Origin: a virus
Length of the DNA stretch: 49,168 bases
Virus record (IMG/VR): IMGVR_UViG_3300025137_000064
Location: 1 to 49,168 of that record
Strand: one strand, 5' to 3'
A program made the translations under genes and the position numbers. Every line of letters begins with the position of its first letter. Within the stretch, counting starts at the first letter, position 1. Positions 14,944 through 24,806 of this stretch are shown piece by piece. A model generated the notes under the pieces. That model made no database searches, had not been told where the DNA came from, and was given only the letters and a program-made list of their open reading frames with translations.

Positions 14944-15414
14944 GTGTTAGAAGATAAATTATTGGAGAATAGTTCCGAAAAACAAAAGAGACTTTTGGGT
15001 CCAGCGGAGCGTGCGTATAAAAAACCGGATATTGGCGTAGAAATTAAGAATAAATCTGCTTACTATGTGATTAGAGACTGTGCTTTGATCACAAGTAAGT
15101 TTTTAGTATTGCATATTTGGAATGCTTATGATGATCCTTTCAAAAGCTTAGAAGGTAAATTTACTAAAGATGACATCCAAGACTTTTTTAAGAGAGCTAA
15201 AACAGATAAAAACGTTAATAATATCAAGAGTGTAATTATTTCCGCAATGAGAGATAAATTTGACACTACTACAACTTCTAAGTCATTTGACTATTCTCAA
15301 GAAGAAGATGATATATATGGCTACTACGGAGATACAGAAGAGAGTAACGACGACTTCGTAGAAGAAGAAATGACTGAAGAAGAAATGTTCTTAAAGTTCT
15401 TCAAAGTTAGCTAA
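14944..15414 (+). CDS. Late hypothetical protein, 156 aa, GTG start
   Basis: MLEDKLLENSSEKQKRLLGP, a mixed middle (KSAYYVIRDCALITSKFLVL) and a strongly acidic tail (MTEEEMFLKFFKVS). The GTG is placed by the TAAATA promoter. The N-terminal L-L-E fits the L-x-E pattern seen in several other late proteins here. Possibly virion-associated; no family recognised. Confidence 0.6.
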   Translation: MLEDKLLENSSEKQKRLLGPAERAYKKPDIGVEIKNKSAYYVIRDCALITSKFLVLHIWNAYDDPFKSLEGKFTKDDIQDFFKRAKTDKNVNNIKSVIISAMRDKFDTTTTSKSFDYSQEEDDIYGYYGDTEESNDDFVEEEMTEEEMFLKFFKVS

Positions 15415-16804
15415 ACTCAAGCTTAATAGCCTTTGACGTACCAGCTAAACCTAGATATACATCTTTATCTTTTACTAACGCATGCGTAGAGTATCCTGTA
15501 CCCAAACTCATAATTCCTGAACCTTCTTTAACTGTGGGAGAATCTCCTTTAAAGAAGCATTCATAATCTCTCCATTGTATTTCATTTGTATGTGGATTGA
15601 TTCTAAAGCATAATGTATCAGCCCAGAACGCGCTATATACCCATCCATCAGGTCCTAAGAAGCCATGGAAGTTTTTATTCTTATTAGCTATATCAAGATA
15701 CTCAGAAGGTAAATTAACTTCCTCATAAGAGTCATCAACGCAGTTAATAATTAGAATCTTCTTTCCTTGTCTAGGTAAGCAAAAGACTTTATCTACTGCC
15801 TCAACATAGATTGCACCTATGTACTTATGCGTCCATCCTGACACTCCAGATGTAACAGGAGCTCCTTTTAAATATTTGAATACTCCATTCTTATCTATTT
15901 TTGCGATACTTTTTCCTAAAACTTGAGGCATATAAATCTCTCCTTTTTTATCTGTAGCAGCACCCCAGATGTGATTACAGCCTCCTATTCCACTATATGC
16001 AGGCTTTTCAGGAGTAAATGATGTTGTTTCACCTGTCTTAGTATTATAGGTATAAATCTTTAACGTTCTAGTATAAGAAGGCATATAGATGATACCATTT
16101 GTACCTTCTGCGCCTGATCTAACTTGAGGCGTGGATGTGTATTTGTTTTCAAGAGTAATAGCTCCTGTACGTCTATCTAACTTACCAATAGATGTTGTAT
16201 ATGCCGGCATGAAGTAAGTATTACCGTCAGAAGCTTTAACGGTGCCAATAAATCCTTTATGACCTTTCTCTTCTCTTGTAATTTTATCTAAGACTGTATC
16301 AGTCTTAATATGCATATCAGATTTATATCCTAAAGAGTGGATGACGTTTGAATCATCCAAGGCCATTGTACGGGTTTTAGTTAAGTTACCTACGATTTCT
16401 CCAGCTAGATACTTGAATTTTGGCCATGATTCGGTTAAGCCACGAGAAAAAAAACCTGAATTAGTATTGCAGGTAGTAGGTGTACAAGTATCTACTTTAC
16501 AAGTAGCTTCTGTTTGTACAGTACTGCAGCATGAGCAACTTGAAGTTGACTGACATGAAGAAGGCGTACATGAGCAACAAGAGCTTGATTGGCAGGGAGC
16601 AGGTGTACATGAGCAACATGAAGCTGTCGTGTTAACTGTACAACAACAAGAGCTTGCTGTACAACAAGCAGATTGAGATTTTTCTGGAGGAGTTGAGTCT
16701 ACATTAACTGTTACAGGAGCCGTATCAACTTTTAAAGTCTCCAGCTCTTTGATAGTATTTTGTAAATCATCGATTATAGAATTAATTTTACCCGTCTGGC
16801 TCAT
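15407..16804 (-). CDS. Cys-rich linker plus beta-propeller protein, 465 aa
   Basis: Three parts. Residues 1-40 form a coiled-coil-like start (SIIDDLQNTIKELETLK). Residues 47-112 are a low-complexity segment with 19 Cys in imperfect SCCSCTP-x2-CQS repeats. Residues about 125-465 are a repeated-sheet region with blades of the type GYMP/IYMP (NTYFMPAYTTSIGKLDRRTG, GIIYMPSYTRTLKIYTYNTK), resembling a 6-7 bladed propeller such as virginiamycin B lyase or NHL/SMP-30. The TAAATA promoter predicts a late, virion-linked protein. The Cys segment could form disulfides or bind metal. Converges with the 156-aa gene (8-nt overlap). Confidence 0.7.
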   Translation of the reverse strand: MSQTGKINSIIDDLQNTIKELETLKVDTAPVTVNVDSTPPEKSQSACCTASSCCCTVNTTASCCSCTPAPCQSSSCCSCTPSSCQSTSSCSCCSTVQTEATCKVDTCTPTTCNTNSGFFSRGLTESWPKFKYLAGEIVGNLTKTRTMALDDSNVIHSLGYKSDMHIKTDTVLDKITREEKGHKGFIGTVKASDGNTYFMPAYTTSIGKLDRRTGAITLENKYTSTPQVRSGAEGTNGIIYMPSYTRTLKIYTYNTKTGETTSFTPEKPAYSGIGGCNHIWGAATDKKGEIYMPQVLGKSIAKIDKNGVFKYLKGAPVTSGVSGWTHKYIGAIYVEAVDKVFCLPRQGKKILIINCVDDSYEEVNLPSEYLDIANKNKNFHGFLGPDGWVYSAFWADTLCFRINPHTNEIQWRDYECFFKGDSPTVKEGSGIMSLGTGYSTHALVKDKDVYLGLAGTSKAIKLEFS

Positions 16805-20169: not shown

Positions 20170-20196
20170 ATTATAAGGCATAAAACGAATAATCAA
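20170..20196 (-). promoter_or_regulatory. Sigma-70-type promoter of guaC/sugar operon
   Basis: TTGATT, 15-nt spacer, TATAAT, then 9 nt to the ATG. No GGAAC box, so probably read by host sigma and active early. Confidence 0.65.
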
Positions 20197-20396
20197 GACA
20201 AAATATGATCTCTTATATTCTCTATTGTTACTTCATCCTCTTCAATAGCACTAGCTATCTGATCTAGAAAAGTACCTCCTAGTTCAGATAATTCAAAATC
20301 TTCTGTACTCTCTAACAAGTCCTTAATTTTGTAAATTTGCTCCCATAAATTTTCCGTCTCCGCGTCAAACTTTTTAAGTAAAGAATTTCGTTTCAT
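20193..20396 (-). CDS. Acidic hypothetical protein, 67 aa
   Basis: MKRNSLLKKFDAETENLWEQ then acidic helices ending ENIRDHILS. TAAATA lies 5 nt upstream. Divergent from the superoxide dismutase gene with 28 nt between starts. No family recognised. Confidence 0.6.
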   Translation of the reverse strand: MKRNSLLKKFDAETENLWEQIYKIKDLLESTEDFELSELGGTFLDQIASAIEEDEVTIENIRDHILS

Positions 20397-20401
20397 ATTG
20401 C

Positions 20402-20407
20402 TATTTA
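20402..20407 (-). promoter_or_regulatory. Class B promoter of 67-aa gene (20193-20396)
   Basis: AATAAATA, 5-nt gap; back to back with the dismutase promoter. Confidence 0.65.
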
Positions 20408-20412
20408 TTAAT

Positions 20413-20418
20413 TAAATA
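20413..20418 (+). promoter_or_regulatory. Class B promoter of superoxide dismutase gene
   Basis: TTAAATA, 6 nt before the ATG. Confidence 0.65.
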
Positions 20419-20424
20419 TAATTA

Positions 20425-21051
20425 ATGTCATTCTTATCAGAAGTAAACTTAATTTTAGAGAAAGTTGGTCCTTATAAGCCAATTAACCTACCATATAAAT
20501 TAAATGCATTGGAGCCTGTAGTTAATAAACAGACAACAGACTTTCATTTTAATAAGCATTACAAAGGATATGTTAAAAAATTAAATGCGGCTATGGGGGC
20601 TAGAAGAAAGATACCTCTTGTAGAGCTAGTTAAAAATATTGACAACTATAATGATAAAGTAAGAGACAACGCTGGCGGAGCTTACAATCATCAATTATTC
20701 TTTAACATGATGAAGCCTGGTGGCAGTGACTTTAACGGAGAGATTGCTGATAGGATCAAAAAACGCTTTGGTACCTATGCAAAATTTAAGAAAGAGTTTA
20801 TTGATAATGCAGCAAGTCAATTTGGTTCAGGCTGGGGCTGGTTAGTCGAAAAAGATGGTAAGCTCGATCTAGTTAAGACTCCTAATCAAGATAATCCTCT
20901 AATGCATAATATGGGTAAGCCTATATTAGGGGTAGATGTATGGGAGCATAGTTACTACCTAATGTATGGACCAGATAGGAAAGAATGGTTAAGCAAGTTT
21001 TTCGATATTGTTAACTGGGACTTCTGCTCTGCGCTTCTGCATACTAGCTAA
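20425..21051 (+). CDS. Fe/Mn-family superoxide dismutase, 208 aa
   Basis: LPYKLNALEPVVNKQTTDFH starts the SOD N-domain. Metal ligands are His41 (FHFNKHY), His89 (YNHQLFF), Asp171 and His175 (DVWEHSYYLMYG). FGSGWGWLV and VNWDF are also conserved. It should convert superoxide to peroxide and oxygen; Fe or Mn preference is not decided. It has an extra 20 residues before the usual start (MSFLSEVNLILEKVGPYKPI), containing L-I-L-E. The late promoter suggests expression with virion proteins. The 3' end overlaps the convergent nuclease gene by 63 nt. Confidence 0.93.
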   Translation: MSFLSEVNLILEKVGPYKPINLPYKLNALEPVVNKQTTDFHFNKHYKGYVKKLNAAMGARRKIPLVELVKNIDNYNDKVRDNAGGAYNHQLFFNMMKPGGSDFNGEIADRIKKRFGTYAKFKKEFIDNAASQFGSGWGWLVEKDGKLDLVKTPNQDNPLMHNMGKPILGVDVWEHSYYLMYGPDRKEWLSKFFDIVNWDFCSALLHTS

Positions 21052-21714
21052 GATCGCTTCTACTTCCGCTTTCATATAATTTACATGATAAGCTAAAAAT
21101 CTATCATCTTGTAAGTAATAGATTACACACTTCCTACATCTCTTACCAGACATTCTTTCATAGAGGTAAGCATATAAAGATAGCTGCAAACCATATAAAT
21201 TAAACTCACAGTTATGTAAATGACTTACAGGGTCTTTCAATCTCTCACTAAAGGGTGAGCTAAATCTAAAACGTTTATTAGTTTTAAAGTCACCAACAGT
21301 AAACTCGTTTTTATGTTCATAAATTAAGTCTGCAGTACCAGCTATTTTAAACTCTTCATCATAAAGTAAATTTTCACATAATACGTTTTTAAAAGAATCG
21401 ATAGAGCGTTCTGCAGCTTTATCATAAGATTTGCATAGCCAACCATAATTCTCTCTAACATCACCGAAACTGATATAATCTTCTAAAATCTTATGAATAT
21501 CAGTCCCTCGGTTACATGCTCTTACTTTTTCTTTCTCCCACATTTCAAGAACAAATTCTTGAGATATGCCCTCTCTATTAGCTACCCTTTTAGAATGACC
21601 ATCCCTATCAAAGGGCTGCTTATACTCACCGAGTAAAGTAGTTACTGAAATAAACTTTTCCTTAGTATCTTTGTGCGTATAGGTATGAGACGCTTCATCA
21701 AACTTTATCTTCAC
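20989..21714 (-). CDS. PD-(D/E)XK nuclease, RecB/Cas4-like, 241 aa
   Basis: RGTDIHKILE (residues 69-78) is the GxxxH motif of RecB-like nucleases. IAGTADLIY (Asp129) and FTVGDFKTNK (Asp142, Lys144) complete the catalytic PD-(D/E)XK core. A Gln-containing helix (LYGLQLSLYAYLYERMSG) is typical of motif IV. C/x/C residues near RCRKC exist but no clear iron-sulfur set. Likely DNA exonuclease in replication or recombination. GTG start, 8 nt after a sigma-70-type hexamer. Confidence 0.85.
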   Translation of the reverse strand: MKIKFDEASHTYTHKDTKEKFISVTTLLGEYKQPFDRDGHSKRVANREGISQEFVLEMWEKEKVRACNRGTDIHKILEDYISFGDVRENYGWLCKSYDKAAERSIDSFKNVLCENLLYDEEFKIAGTADLIYEHKNEFTVGDFKTNKRFRFSSPFSERLKDPVSHLHNCEFNLYGLQLSLYAYLYERMSGKRCRKCVIYYLQDDRFLAYHVNYMKAEVEAILASMQKRRAEVPVNNIEKLA

Positions 21715-21802: not shown

Positions 21803-22120
21803 ATGGAACCTGAAAAATCCTTGCTTAAAGAGTTCCTCCAAGGAGGCTGGGTTGTACCTTTAATTGGTGCAGGTGCTATGTTAGCACGTTTATTGTCCGG
21901 AGAGAATCACTATACATGGGGACAACAACTTAGAAAGATATTTACTGCTGGTATTTCAGCAGGTATCGCATGGTTTATATTAGAGCAAACAGAAATATCT
22001 TCTCTTTATAAAGCAGTTACATATGGAATCATAGGAGTTATATCTCCAGAGGTTATAGCAGGTATAGTAAAGTTAGGCAAGAAGTTTGCGGATAACCCTG
22101 AAAATATTATTAAGAAATAA
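21803..22120 (+). CDS. Holin-like membrane protein, 105 aa
   Basis: A polar start (MEPEKSLLKEFLQGG) is followed by hydrophobic segments WVVPLIGAGAMLARLL, IFTAGISAGIAWFIL and YGIIGVISPEVIAGIV, and ends in a Lys-rich tail. The three-helix layout and GVISPE motif resemble the LydA-type holin superfamily III. Late promoter and the membrane-protein partner downstream fit a lysis cassette; no endolysin is seen nearby. Confidence 0.65.
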   Translation: MEPEKSLLKEFLQGGWVVPLIGAGAMLARLLSGENHYTWGQQLRKIFTAGISAGIAWFILEQTEISSLYKAVTYGIIGVISPEVIAGIVKLGKKFADNPENIIKK

Positions 22121-22124
22121 TATT

Positions 22125-22370
22125 ATGAAGCCGAAGTATTTAGTTTATTTGTTATCTGCTATTATATTAGCTTTTGTGGTTAAAGGATACTTTTGCGTAG
22201 AGATGATAAGTACTTACTTAAACGCGTTAGAAAACGGAGCTTCTACTAAAGATGGAGATTTACATGGCTTAATGTGTAATAATTTAGAAGATTTTAAGAA
22301 GCATTTATTATTCTCAGGAGTATTTGCTACAGTTATTGCTGTTTGTTGTAGGTTAAAAGCACCAAAGTAA
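22125..22370 (+). CDS. Small membrane protein, possible lysis accessory, 81 aa
   Basis: MKPKYLVYLLSAIILAFVVK begins the first membrane helix, and LLFSGVFATVIAVCC is the second. A Cys-containing loop lies between (YFCVEMISTYL ... LMCNNLEDF). Starts 4 nt after the holin-like stop. An antiholin or spanin-like role is possible from position only. An upstream in-frame ATG inside the holin gene is less likely. Confidence 0.55.
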   Translation: MKPKYLVYLLSAIILAFVVKGYFCVEMISTYLNALENGASTKDGDLHGLMCNNLEDFKKHLLFSGVFATVIAVCCRLKAPK

Positions 22371-22382: not shown

Positions 22383-24806
22383 ATGGGAAAGAAGATATCC
22401 GAACTTACTATAGCTAGCACTCCATATGAAGGTGAAGAACTTTTTGCAATGGTTGAGGATAATGCTACTGTTGCAGCTCCTATTAGCTCGTTACAAACAT
22501 TTTTATCCGGGCAAGATCATTTAGCGTCACCGTTTAAAAATAATCGGTTTGCTTGCACTCAAACATTCTTAGGCGCTATTAGCGGCATGACTACTTTAAC
22601 TGTAGGTACTGTTGCAACTCATACTAACGCAGGAGGTACCGGTTCTACAATCGCAGGTGGTAGAAATAATACAAACTGCGGAGCTTGTGGTACTATTGCA
22701 GGGGGTTGTGGTAACTCTATTGCCTCATCATCCGATGTTGCATTTATTGGAGCAGGTAAAGGTAATACTGCTTCGTCGACTTGCGATGCTGTAGTTGGAG
22801 GTAGTGGCAATACTGCCTTAGGTGGTGGTAGTTTTGTAGGAGGCGGAGCATCGAATACTGCTGCCAACTGCACATCAGTAGTAGTTGGAGGTCAAAGTAA
22901 TGGCGCTAATTGTGCACATACAATAGTAGGAGGCGGGTGTAGAAATACCGCGGCTGGTAAATGTAGTACTATTACAGGTGGTAAAGATAATAAAACCTCA
23001 GGAGATTTTTCTACTATAGTTAGTGGTAATGCTAACCAATCTAGAGGAGACTATGCTTCCTTAGTTGGAGGGTTAAGTTCATGTGCCATTGGTAAAGCTT
23101 CTTTTGTTGGTGGAGGTACTTGTAACTGTGTAACGGGCCTTAGTGCTTTTGCTGGAGGTGGTCATATTAATAAAGTTACTGGAGCAGCAAGCTCAATTGT
23201 TGGAGGTAATACTAATACAGTAACAGGAAGCGGTGCTTTCGTTGGTGGTGGTAACTTCAATAATGCTGCAACTAAAGAATCTTTCATAGGAGGAGGAGCG
23301 GGTAATGCTAATGGAGGTGCTTGTTCAGTAATTGTTGGTGGTGAAAGTAATACTGCTTCAGCTGCTTATACGTCTACTGTTGGAGGTAAAAGTAACTCTG
23401 CTAGCGGTGCACATTCTACAGCAGTAGGAGGTTGTAATAATACCGTTACTGGGACTTGTAGTGTAATAGTAGGAGGTAAGTCAAATAGTGCATTAGGTTG
23501 TGATACTTTCATTGGAGGTGGAAACTGCAACCAAACCAATAGTACAGCAGACGTAGCTACTATAGTAGGAGGTCAATCTAATTGCATTAACGCTAACGCT
23601 GATCATGGATTCATTGGTGGAGGTTGCGCTAATAGTGTAATAGCTAATGCATGTGATGCTGTAATAGGTGGTGGTGATAATAATAAAGTTGCAGGTGATC
23701 ATGGTTCTGTAGTAGGAGGTTGCGCTAATTGTGCTAATGGGGTCAAGTCTTTTGTAGGAGGTGGAGGCGACAACGTAACGTCTGGTGTAGCGTCAGTTCG
23801 TGTTGGAGGACTTTGTAACACTGGTTGCGGTCCATATTCTTTTATTGGAGGAGGAGAAGCTAATACAGATAACGGAGCTAATATGACCGTTATTGTTGGA
23901 GGATGCGGTAACACTCTTACTAATTCAGTTACTGGTGCATTTATTGGAGGAGGTAGTAATAACAAGACTTGCGGATATAGTTCATTTATTGGAGGTGGAG
24001 AATCCAACTCAATGGGATGCTCTAATTCATACTTTGGAGTTATCGTAGGAGGTAGAGGTAACTGCTTAACAGGTTTAAATGCTGTTATTGTAGGAGGAGA
24101 GAGTAACTGTGCTTTAGCAGTCCATACTACTGTTGGAGGCGGTCGTGCTAACTGTATAGGTACATCTGGTATAGGAAGTATCATAGGAGGTGGTCTTTGT
24201 AACGATATTAATACTGCTAATTCTACTATTGGTGGAGGAAGTAGTAATACAAATACAACTGGTGAAGGAGGCACTATTGGTGGAGGAAATAGTAACAAAG
24301 TCGCTGCAAATAAAGCTACAGTTGCAGGAGGTAACGCTAACTGCGCATGTGGTAACTGTTCTTTTGTTGGAGGAGGTGATCTTAATAAAGTTAATACCCC
24401 TGATAGTGTTATTGTAGGTGGTAAGCAGAACTTCGAAAGTGGTACATGCGACAATAGTATTGTAGGAGGTCAACTAAATAACATTTGTGGTACTTCGTAT
24501 GGTTCAAATATAGTAGGTGGCCAAAGTAATTGCTTATGCAACTCTAACCATTCAACTATTGCAGGTGGAATAAATAATACTTTGTCTGGTGCATGCGGGT
24601 TTATAGCTGGTGGAAATTGTAATGTTATAAAAAGTATTCATACCGGTTCTGCTATGGTAGCTACAAGTCAGATAACTTCTGTTTCATCTAATATGCTTCA
24701 TGCTACAAATTTATACTTAAAAACAGTACCGACAAGTGATCCTGGTGTTGATGGTGTTATTTGGAATTCTTCTGGTACATTAAAAATATCACAAGGTAAT
24801 TGTTAG
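22383..24806 (+). CDS. Cys-rich beta-solenoid tail fibre/adhesin, 807 aa
   Basis: The N-terminus (MGKKISELTIASTPYEGEEL) is the KISELxxxT-x-GxE type that begins many phage fibre and collar proteins. Residues about 75-750 comprise about 43 repeats of 15-18 residues of the form SxVxGGxxNxxxGxx, like trimeric-autotransporter (YadA-type) head repeats, so a left-handed beta-roll trimer is likely. Cysteines are strikingly frequent in the turns (NCACGNCS, TCNCVTG). The C-terminus (TVPTSDPGVDGVIWNSSGTL) is a common virion tip ending. Receptor binding is inferred. Followed by a glycosyltransferase gene. Confidence 0.8.
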   Translation: MGKKISELTIASTPYEGEELFAMVEDNATVAAPISSLQTFLSGQDHLASPFKNNRFACTQTFLGAISGMTTLTVGTVATHTNAGGTGSTIAGGRNNTNCGACGTIAGGCGNSIASSSDVAFIGAGKGNTASSTCDAVVGGSGNTALGGGSFVGGGASNTAANCTSVVVGGQSNGANCAHTIVGGGCRNTAAGKCSTITGGKDNKTSGDFSTIVSGNANQSRGDYASLVGGLSSCAIGKASFVGGGTCNCVTGLSAFAGGGHINKVTGAASSIVGGNTNTVTGSGAFVGGGNFNNAATKESFIGGGAGNANGGACSVIVGGESNTASAAYTSTVGGKSNSASGAHSTAVGGCNNTVTGTCSVIVGGKSNSALGCDTFIGGGNCNQTNSTADVATIVGGQSNCINANADHGFIGGGCANSVIANACDAVIGGGDNNKVAGDHGSVVGGCANCANGVKSFVGGGGDNVTSGVASVRVGGLCNTGCGPYSFIGGGEANTDNGANMTVIVGGCGNTLTNSVTGAFIGGGSNNKTCGYSSFIGGGESNSMGCSNSYFGVIVGGRGNCLTGLNAVIVGGESNCALAVHTTVGGGRANCIGTSGIGSIIGGGLCNDINTANSTIGGGSSNTNTTGEGGTIGGGNSNKVAANKATVAGGNANCACGNCSFVGGGDLNKVNTPDSVIVGGKQNFESGTCDNSIVGGQLNNICGTSYGSNIVGGQSNCLCNSNHSTIAGGINNTLSGACGFIAGGNCNVIKSIHTGSAMVATSQITSVSSNMLHATNLYLKTVPTSDPGVDGVIWNSSGTLKISQGNC
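22640..24640 (+). repeat. About 43 tandem 45-54-bp coding repeats
   Basis: Degenerate in-frame repeats with a GTWGGAGGT-like core encoding V-G-G. They explain the long open frames on the opposite strand, which are not genes. Such a tract is prone to slippage and recombination. Confidence 0.8.

Follow-up and report, generated by a model that had tools for sequence, protein, structure and literature searches.

The window analysed here, a single stretch of DNA of 49,168 nucleotides from a T4-like marine phage, carries a superoxide dismutase (SOD) gene flanked by one divergently and one convergently transcribed neighbour, with the following features:

20193..20396, minus strand: divergent late gene of 67 residues, adjoining the SOD gene in clade A
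20402..20407, minus strand: opposite-facing late element TAAATA, 11 nt ahead of the start of the divergent gene
20413..20418, plus strand: late-promoter element TAAATA, beginning 12 nt before the SOD ATG and present in related loci
20425..21051, plus strand: superoxide dismutase gene for a precursor of 208 residues, an open reading frame with Pfam and PDB matches that keeps its position in 20 related loci
20425..20460, plus strand: putative capsid-targeting-like leader of 12 residues, MSFLSEVNLILE, distinguished by conservation, synonymous-only change, low pLDDT and similar N-termini elsewhere
20452..20463, plus strand: predicted gp21-type prohead protease site, I10-L11-E12 / K13, fixed in position, with the same motif in polyprotein linkers and capsid propeptides
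20488..21048, plus strand: SOD catalytic core, from LPY, with ligands H41, H89, D171 and H175, assigned by Pfam, PDB, fold match and residue check
20989..21714, minus strand: convergent gene for a PD-(D/E)XK (RecB-like) nuclease, sharing 63 bp with the 3' end of the SOD gene

Related phage SODs form three clades. Clade A consists of 20 IMG/VR loci that retain the leader (SOD identity 74-100%); clade B (49-56% identity) also retains it, for example as MNYDKLADLILEEVGGYKPVKLPY; and in clade F (45-51% identity) the SOD is embedded in proteins of about 360-960 residues. In the tree, clades A and B group together (100/93), as do the fusions (97/91), and both groups are separate from the sampled bacterial SODs; phages may have acquired SOD in one event or in two. 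No closely related phage isolate came up when about 20 kb of structural genes were searched by megablast, and the related phages are uncultivated. SOD matches in Staphylococcus, Salmonella, Listeria, Enterococcus and Acinetobacter phage records were set aside as likely host DNA, and the freshwater sequence MW462191, whose SOD is surrounded by bacterial-looking genes, was left out. One further SOD, from a Fluviicola MAG (L142), is flanked by secreted-protein-like genes and may be of host or phage origin.

The SOD product matched Pfam profiles PF00081 (8e-20; 71.5 bits against a curated cut-off of 27) and PF02777 (2.5e-34; 117.8 bits against 20.9), and by Pfam it is single-domain, while a search of PHROGs returned no family for it. 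Its closest solved structures are bacterial Mn-SODs (E = 2e-53), and it resembles those of B. subtilis (2rcv) and S. equorum (5x2j) in fold, ligands and QDNPL signature, sharing about 44% of residues with them when matched by structure. An AlphaFold model built with 20 homologues as input had a mean pLDDT of 87, exceeding 90 across most of the core, and superimposed on Mn-SODs with a TM-score of about 0.9. The four metal ligands are invariant across 22 aligned SODs, Gly85 and Gln155 (QDNPL) are indicative of the Mn type, and the second-sphere set is complete for H45, Y49, W137, Q155, W173, E174 and Y178. By fold and residues the window protein is thus a complete Mn-type Fe/Mn-SOD, and it is probably enzymatically active. 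Its sole second-sphere oddity is F93 at the position of E. coli W85, and this replacement of an active-site neighbour, together with the frequency of DNA binding among packaged proteins, would be compatible with a SOD fold that has lost its enzyme function and been co-opted into the head for structure or DNA binding. The phenylalanine is however a feature of clade A, as W stands here in clade B and in the fusions, and the ligands, the H30/Y34 gateway and the equivalents of Q146 and E170 are all retained; we consider loss of enzyme function highly improbable.

The SOD gene also departs from those of bacterial Mn-SODs in having a late phage promoter. In all four genomes the TAAATA element peaks sharply 11-12 nt ahead of start codons; it precedes 19 of 34 structural-region genes against 3 of 26 replication-region genes (Fisher p = 4e-4). 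The copy at -12 of the SOD gene is a TATAAATA-like element of the T4 late type and falls within the -11/-12 peak. A sequence-only reading of this DNA had proposed both a full set of metal ligands and a late-type promoter for the SOD, and both proposals hold: all four ligands were found, and the promoter element is correctly positioned, enriched in the structural region and kept in relatives. Expression of the SOD late in infection is well supported by these promoter comparisons. Across the window and three related genomes (G001-G003), promoters fall into two classes, both very close to the start codon: TAAATA, at -11/-12, and TATAAT, which lies at about -11 to -13. With promoters almost on the start codon and few Shine-Dalgarno-like sequences, many mRNAs of these phages may be nearly leaderless.

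The N-terminus of the window SOD reads MSFLSEVNLILE-KVGPYKPIN-LPY, placing 21 residues ahead of the conserved LPY compared with 7 in most sampled bacterial SODs. This puts the real excess at about 12-14 residues, and not the roughly 20 claimed in the sequence-only reading, which was correct in reporting an extension with L-I-L-E but overestimated a leader that is nearer 12 residues long. In the AlphaFold model residues 1-14 have pLDDT below 50, and the leader is predicted to be disordered and outside the fold. Among 17 distinct clade A genes, which share kinship and so are not independent counts, the codons of F3, V7, L11 and E12 differ synonymously only, L9 and I10 exchange only between L and I, and positions 2, 4 and 5 are variable. 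Synonymous-only change at the key positions implies that the constraint acts on the leader peptide. The constrained pattern is a hydrophobic residue at every fourth position followed by E, with a spacing (F3, V7, E12) that differs from that of the T4 capsid-targeting sequence (CTS) MKTYQEFIAE, with aromatics at 4 and 7 (Y4, F7, E10).

In T4, internal proteins carry leaders of 10-19 residues that are removed by gp21, which cuts after the E of (L/I)xE (PMC9026906, PMC5694885). The window leader, 12 residues ending in ILE, agrees with this length range and ending, and the predicted cut after E12 would leave a 9-residue SOD N-terminus of normal length. Of 42 distinct phage SODs, fusions included and not independent within clades, 38 have an (L/I)xE exactly 8-9 residues ahead of the core, and none of 32 Bacteroidia SODs has such a site before the core (0/32). 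In the fusions, the last (L/I)xE ahead of the SOD is 8-9 residues upstream of LPY, with two exceptions. A bare (L/I)xE occurs within the first 20 residues of 21% of proteins in this phage family, so the motif by itself is weak proof; it is the conservation of the site, its exact placement and its spread over three SOD clades that are beyond chance. The same observations bear on whether the gene is an ordinary auxiliary metabolic gene, encoding a late, soluble, unpackaged SOD that eases oxidative stress as the cell lyses and owes its leader to neutral drift. Leaderless SODs do occur in jumbo phages, including PA5oct-like phages and Vibrio phage 2.275.O, and the variability of leader residues 2, 4 and 5 would fit with drift. 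The key leader residues are however fixed in the protein despite codon change, and a site kept in place over three clades, polyproteins among them, is not expected of a neutral tail. We therefore regard an unpackaged auxiliary enzyme as unlikely.

The clade F proteins show two recurring layouts. In one, an N-terminal HExxH domain is followed by SOD and often by extra C-terminal domains; in the other, SOD lies between a short N-terminal segment and a domain at the C-terminus. Outside the SOD these polyproteins matched no Pfam model, and from a motif-level guess some of the C-terminal domains are possibly nuclease-like. A polyprotein structure model was of low confidence (pLDDT 56) and was left out of the fold search. 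Features of this group are found in L098-L141, for example:

L114:2503-4638, L105:2308-5181 and L098:2935-4494: large phage polyproteins with HExxH metallopeptidase-like and SOD domains, often with C-terminal domains

The density of (L/I)xE per 100 residues is 7.4, 6.4 and 4.8 in three types of linker, compared with 0.4 in the SOD and 1.2 in the HExxH domain. After reduction to below 70% identity, the 27 linkers flanking SOD contain 66 (L/I)xE motifs, against 24.6 expected from within-linker shuffles (maximum 44 in 5000). Enrichment was restricted to L or I at P3 and E at P1, and was not seen for V, A, M or F at P3 or for D, Q or K at P1, which matches the preference of gp21. These linkers also bear on the idea that the leader has some other role, such as helping to translate a near-leaderless mRNA, promoting oligomerisation or contacting a partner from host or phage, and that its likeness to a gp21 site is fortuitous. 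Many genes here seem to have next to no 5' leader, and this could restrict the choice of early codons; yet the conserved residues show synonymous codon changes, the leader is predicted to be disordered and not within the fold, and its homologous position in the fusions is a linker rich in cleavage sites. Such a role for the leader is accordingly quite improbable.

Neither gp21 nor gp23 is encoded in the 49-kb window, which is a fragment; both were seen only in longer relatives. The S77 (gp21) protease was found in each of the seven searched SOD contigs that measure at least 138 kb (7/7) and in two shorter contigs, and gp23 in nine SOD-bearing contigs. Both are present in G001, a related genome that is syntenic with the window around the SOD and has a SOD 96% identical to the window's. 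In these phages the capsid protein and the scaffold themselves bear (L/I)xE-type sites, those of the capsid lying ahead of the mature protein, and the N-terminal region of clade A gp23 contains RADSLLEKW and AILLENQ. Leaders similar to that of the SOD were sought with a PSSM, used in place of the pattern F-x3-hydrophobic-x2-[LI]xE, which matched few N-termini. Seven other N-termini in the same phages scored at p <= 0.001, against 0.6 expected, one of them being MKFDDLVKRIIEENW, on a late gene. The T4-type CTS K[STK][FY]..[YF] (MK[STK]F..[YF]) was present at 7 of 567 N-termini and in 0 of 10196 internal windows, and in G001 it begins four proteins that are otherwise mutually unrelated, in a cluster about 75 kb distant from the SOD. 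From these SOD-leader-like and T4-like N-termini, the phages appear to employ leader-based head targeting. The G001 cluster lies on the plus strand at 84-92 kb (L034:8090-16044), with the CTS-like N-termini MKTFREYFE, MKTFKEYFEDQ, MKKFKQFFAEK and MKFDDLVKRIIEE, and includes cytidyltransferase-like and Zn-protease-like proteins as candidate packaged proteins.

The explanation that we favour, with a probability of roughly 0.7, is that the window SOD is a late-made precursor that is targeted to the head by its leader, trimmed by gp21 and packaged with the DNA. Late transcription of the precursor, the step with sequence support, would be followed by docking of the amphipathic leader stretch (F3, V7, L11) on the prohead scaffold core, and gp21 would then cut after E12 (ILE|K), leaving a normal-length mature SOD trapped alongside DNA in the head, from which it might be ejected with the DNA, guard the packaged genome, or both. 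Packaging inside the particle is likely on the comparative data; cleavage and delivery, like packaging, are proposed by extension from T4 and from the related phages, and we infer that the SOD acts as an enzyme and benefits the phage. The earlier suggestion of a late, possibly packaged SOD with a targeting-like N-terminal extension thus survives in large part, with conservation of the leader, gp21 in long relatives and gp21-type sites flanking SOD in polyproteins all backing a targeting and cleavage leader made late, and with its length of about 20 residues corrected to nearer 12. The roles it offered for the enzyme, guarding virion DNA, the next host or Cys-rich virion proteins against oxidation, look alike at the level of sequence, and each may apply. 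Delivery into the next host is modestly favoured over protection of virion DNA, because related SODs are fused to HExxH metallopeptidase-like and other domains that are more plausible inside a cell. More broadly, we lean towards the view that aquatic T4-like phages have a widespread set of head-packaged enzymes, released by prohead protease from precursors or polyproteins, in which SOD would be delivered with DNA along with metallopeptidase-like and other effector domains.

This proposed SOD cargo resembles the T4 internal head proteins IPI, IPII, IPIII and Alt in its short leader ending in (L/I)xE, its late-type expression and the presence of gp21 in long relatives, but differs in being a cellular-type metabolic enzyme, in a leader spacing that departs from MKTYQEFIAE, and in that its packaging is a prediction (PMC9026906, PMC5694885). 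Polyvalent phage proteins are multidomain, contain an HExxH metallopeptidase and are predicted to enter the host with DNA (PMC5512222). The clade F fusions are alike in being multidomain with HExxH, a layout confined to these relatives as the window SOD stands alone; in contrast to the polyvalent proteins, for which no SOD is mentioned (PMC5512222), the clade F linkers bear gp21-type sites. The Chlorovirus PBCV-1 Cu/Zn-SOD A245R is described as late, packaged in the virion and thought to lower superoxide in infected cells (PMC7019647). It belongs to an unrelated SOD family and a eukaryotic virus, and the description cited mentions no prohead-protease leader (PMC7019647), but it is the nearest functional precedent for a late, packaged viral SOD. 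The SODs of jumbo phages PA5oct and MIJ3 and of Vibrio phage 2.275.O share a phage-encoded Fe/Mn-SOD fold with the window protein, but have only about 26-32% identity to it, no matching leader, and a setting among metabolic and translation-related genes. In the divergent SOD of Pseudomonas phage MIJ3 (L061:2971-3519), an IAE lies about 10 residues ahead of IPY, which is in the place of LPY; this could be chance. In the open-access literature we found no paper describing a packaged phage SOD of this kind.

T4 packaging leaders are used in the laboratory for loading foreign enzymes into heads. If our reading is true, the window would provide a natural case of a leader-loaded metabolic enzyme in a phage head, and part of the phage SOD genes tallied as auxiliary metabolic genes would be virion cargo. 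The polyproteins also suggest that prohead protease sites could allow further packaged effectors to be recognised from their sequences.

Several neighbouring genes merit description. The divergent 67-residue protein shares a back-to-back late promoter region with the SOD and has LLES in its N-terminal part, and may be a core or packaged protein. The convergent nuclease gene is conserved in clade A and in all four clade B loci checked (4/4). After the SOD, at 21803-22370 (plus strand), are two small membrane-type proteins that are holin candidates; conservation of the first is about 93% across most loci of clade A. These are followed at 22383-24806 (plus strand) by an 807-residue protein, expressed from a late-type promoter and containing GGG/VGG repeats as well as 41 cysteines (5%), which is probably a tail fibre or adhesin, and a 465-residue protein with 24 cysteines is encoded at 15407-16804 (minus strand).
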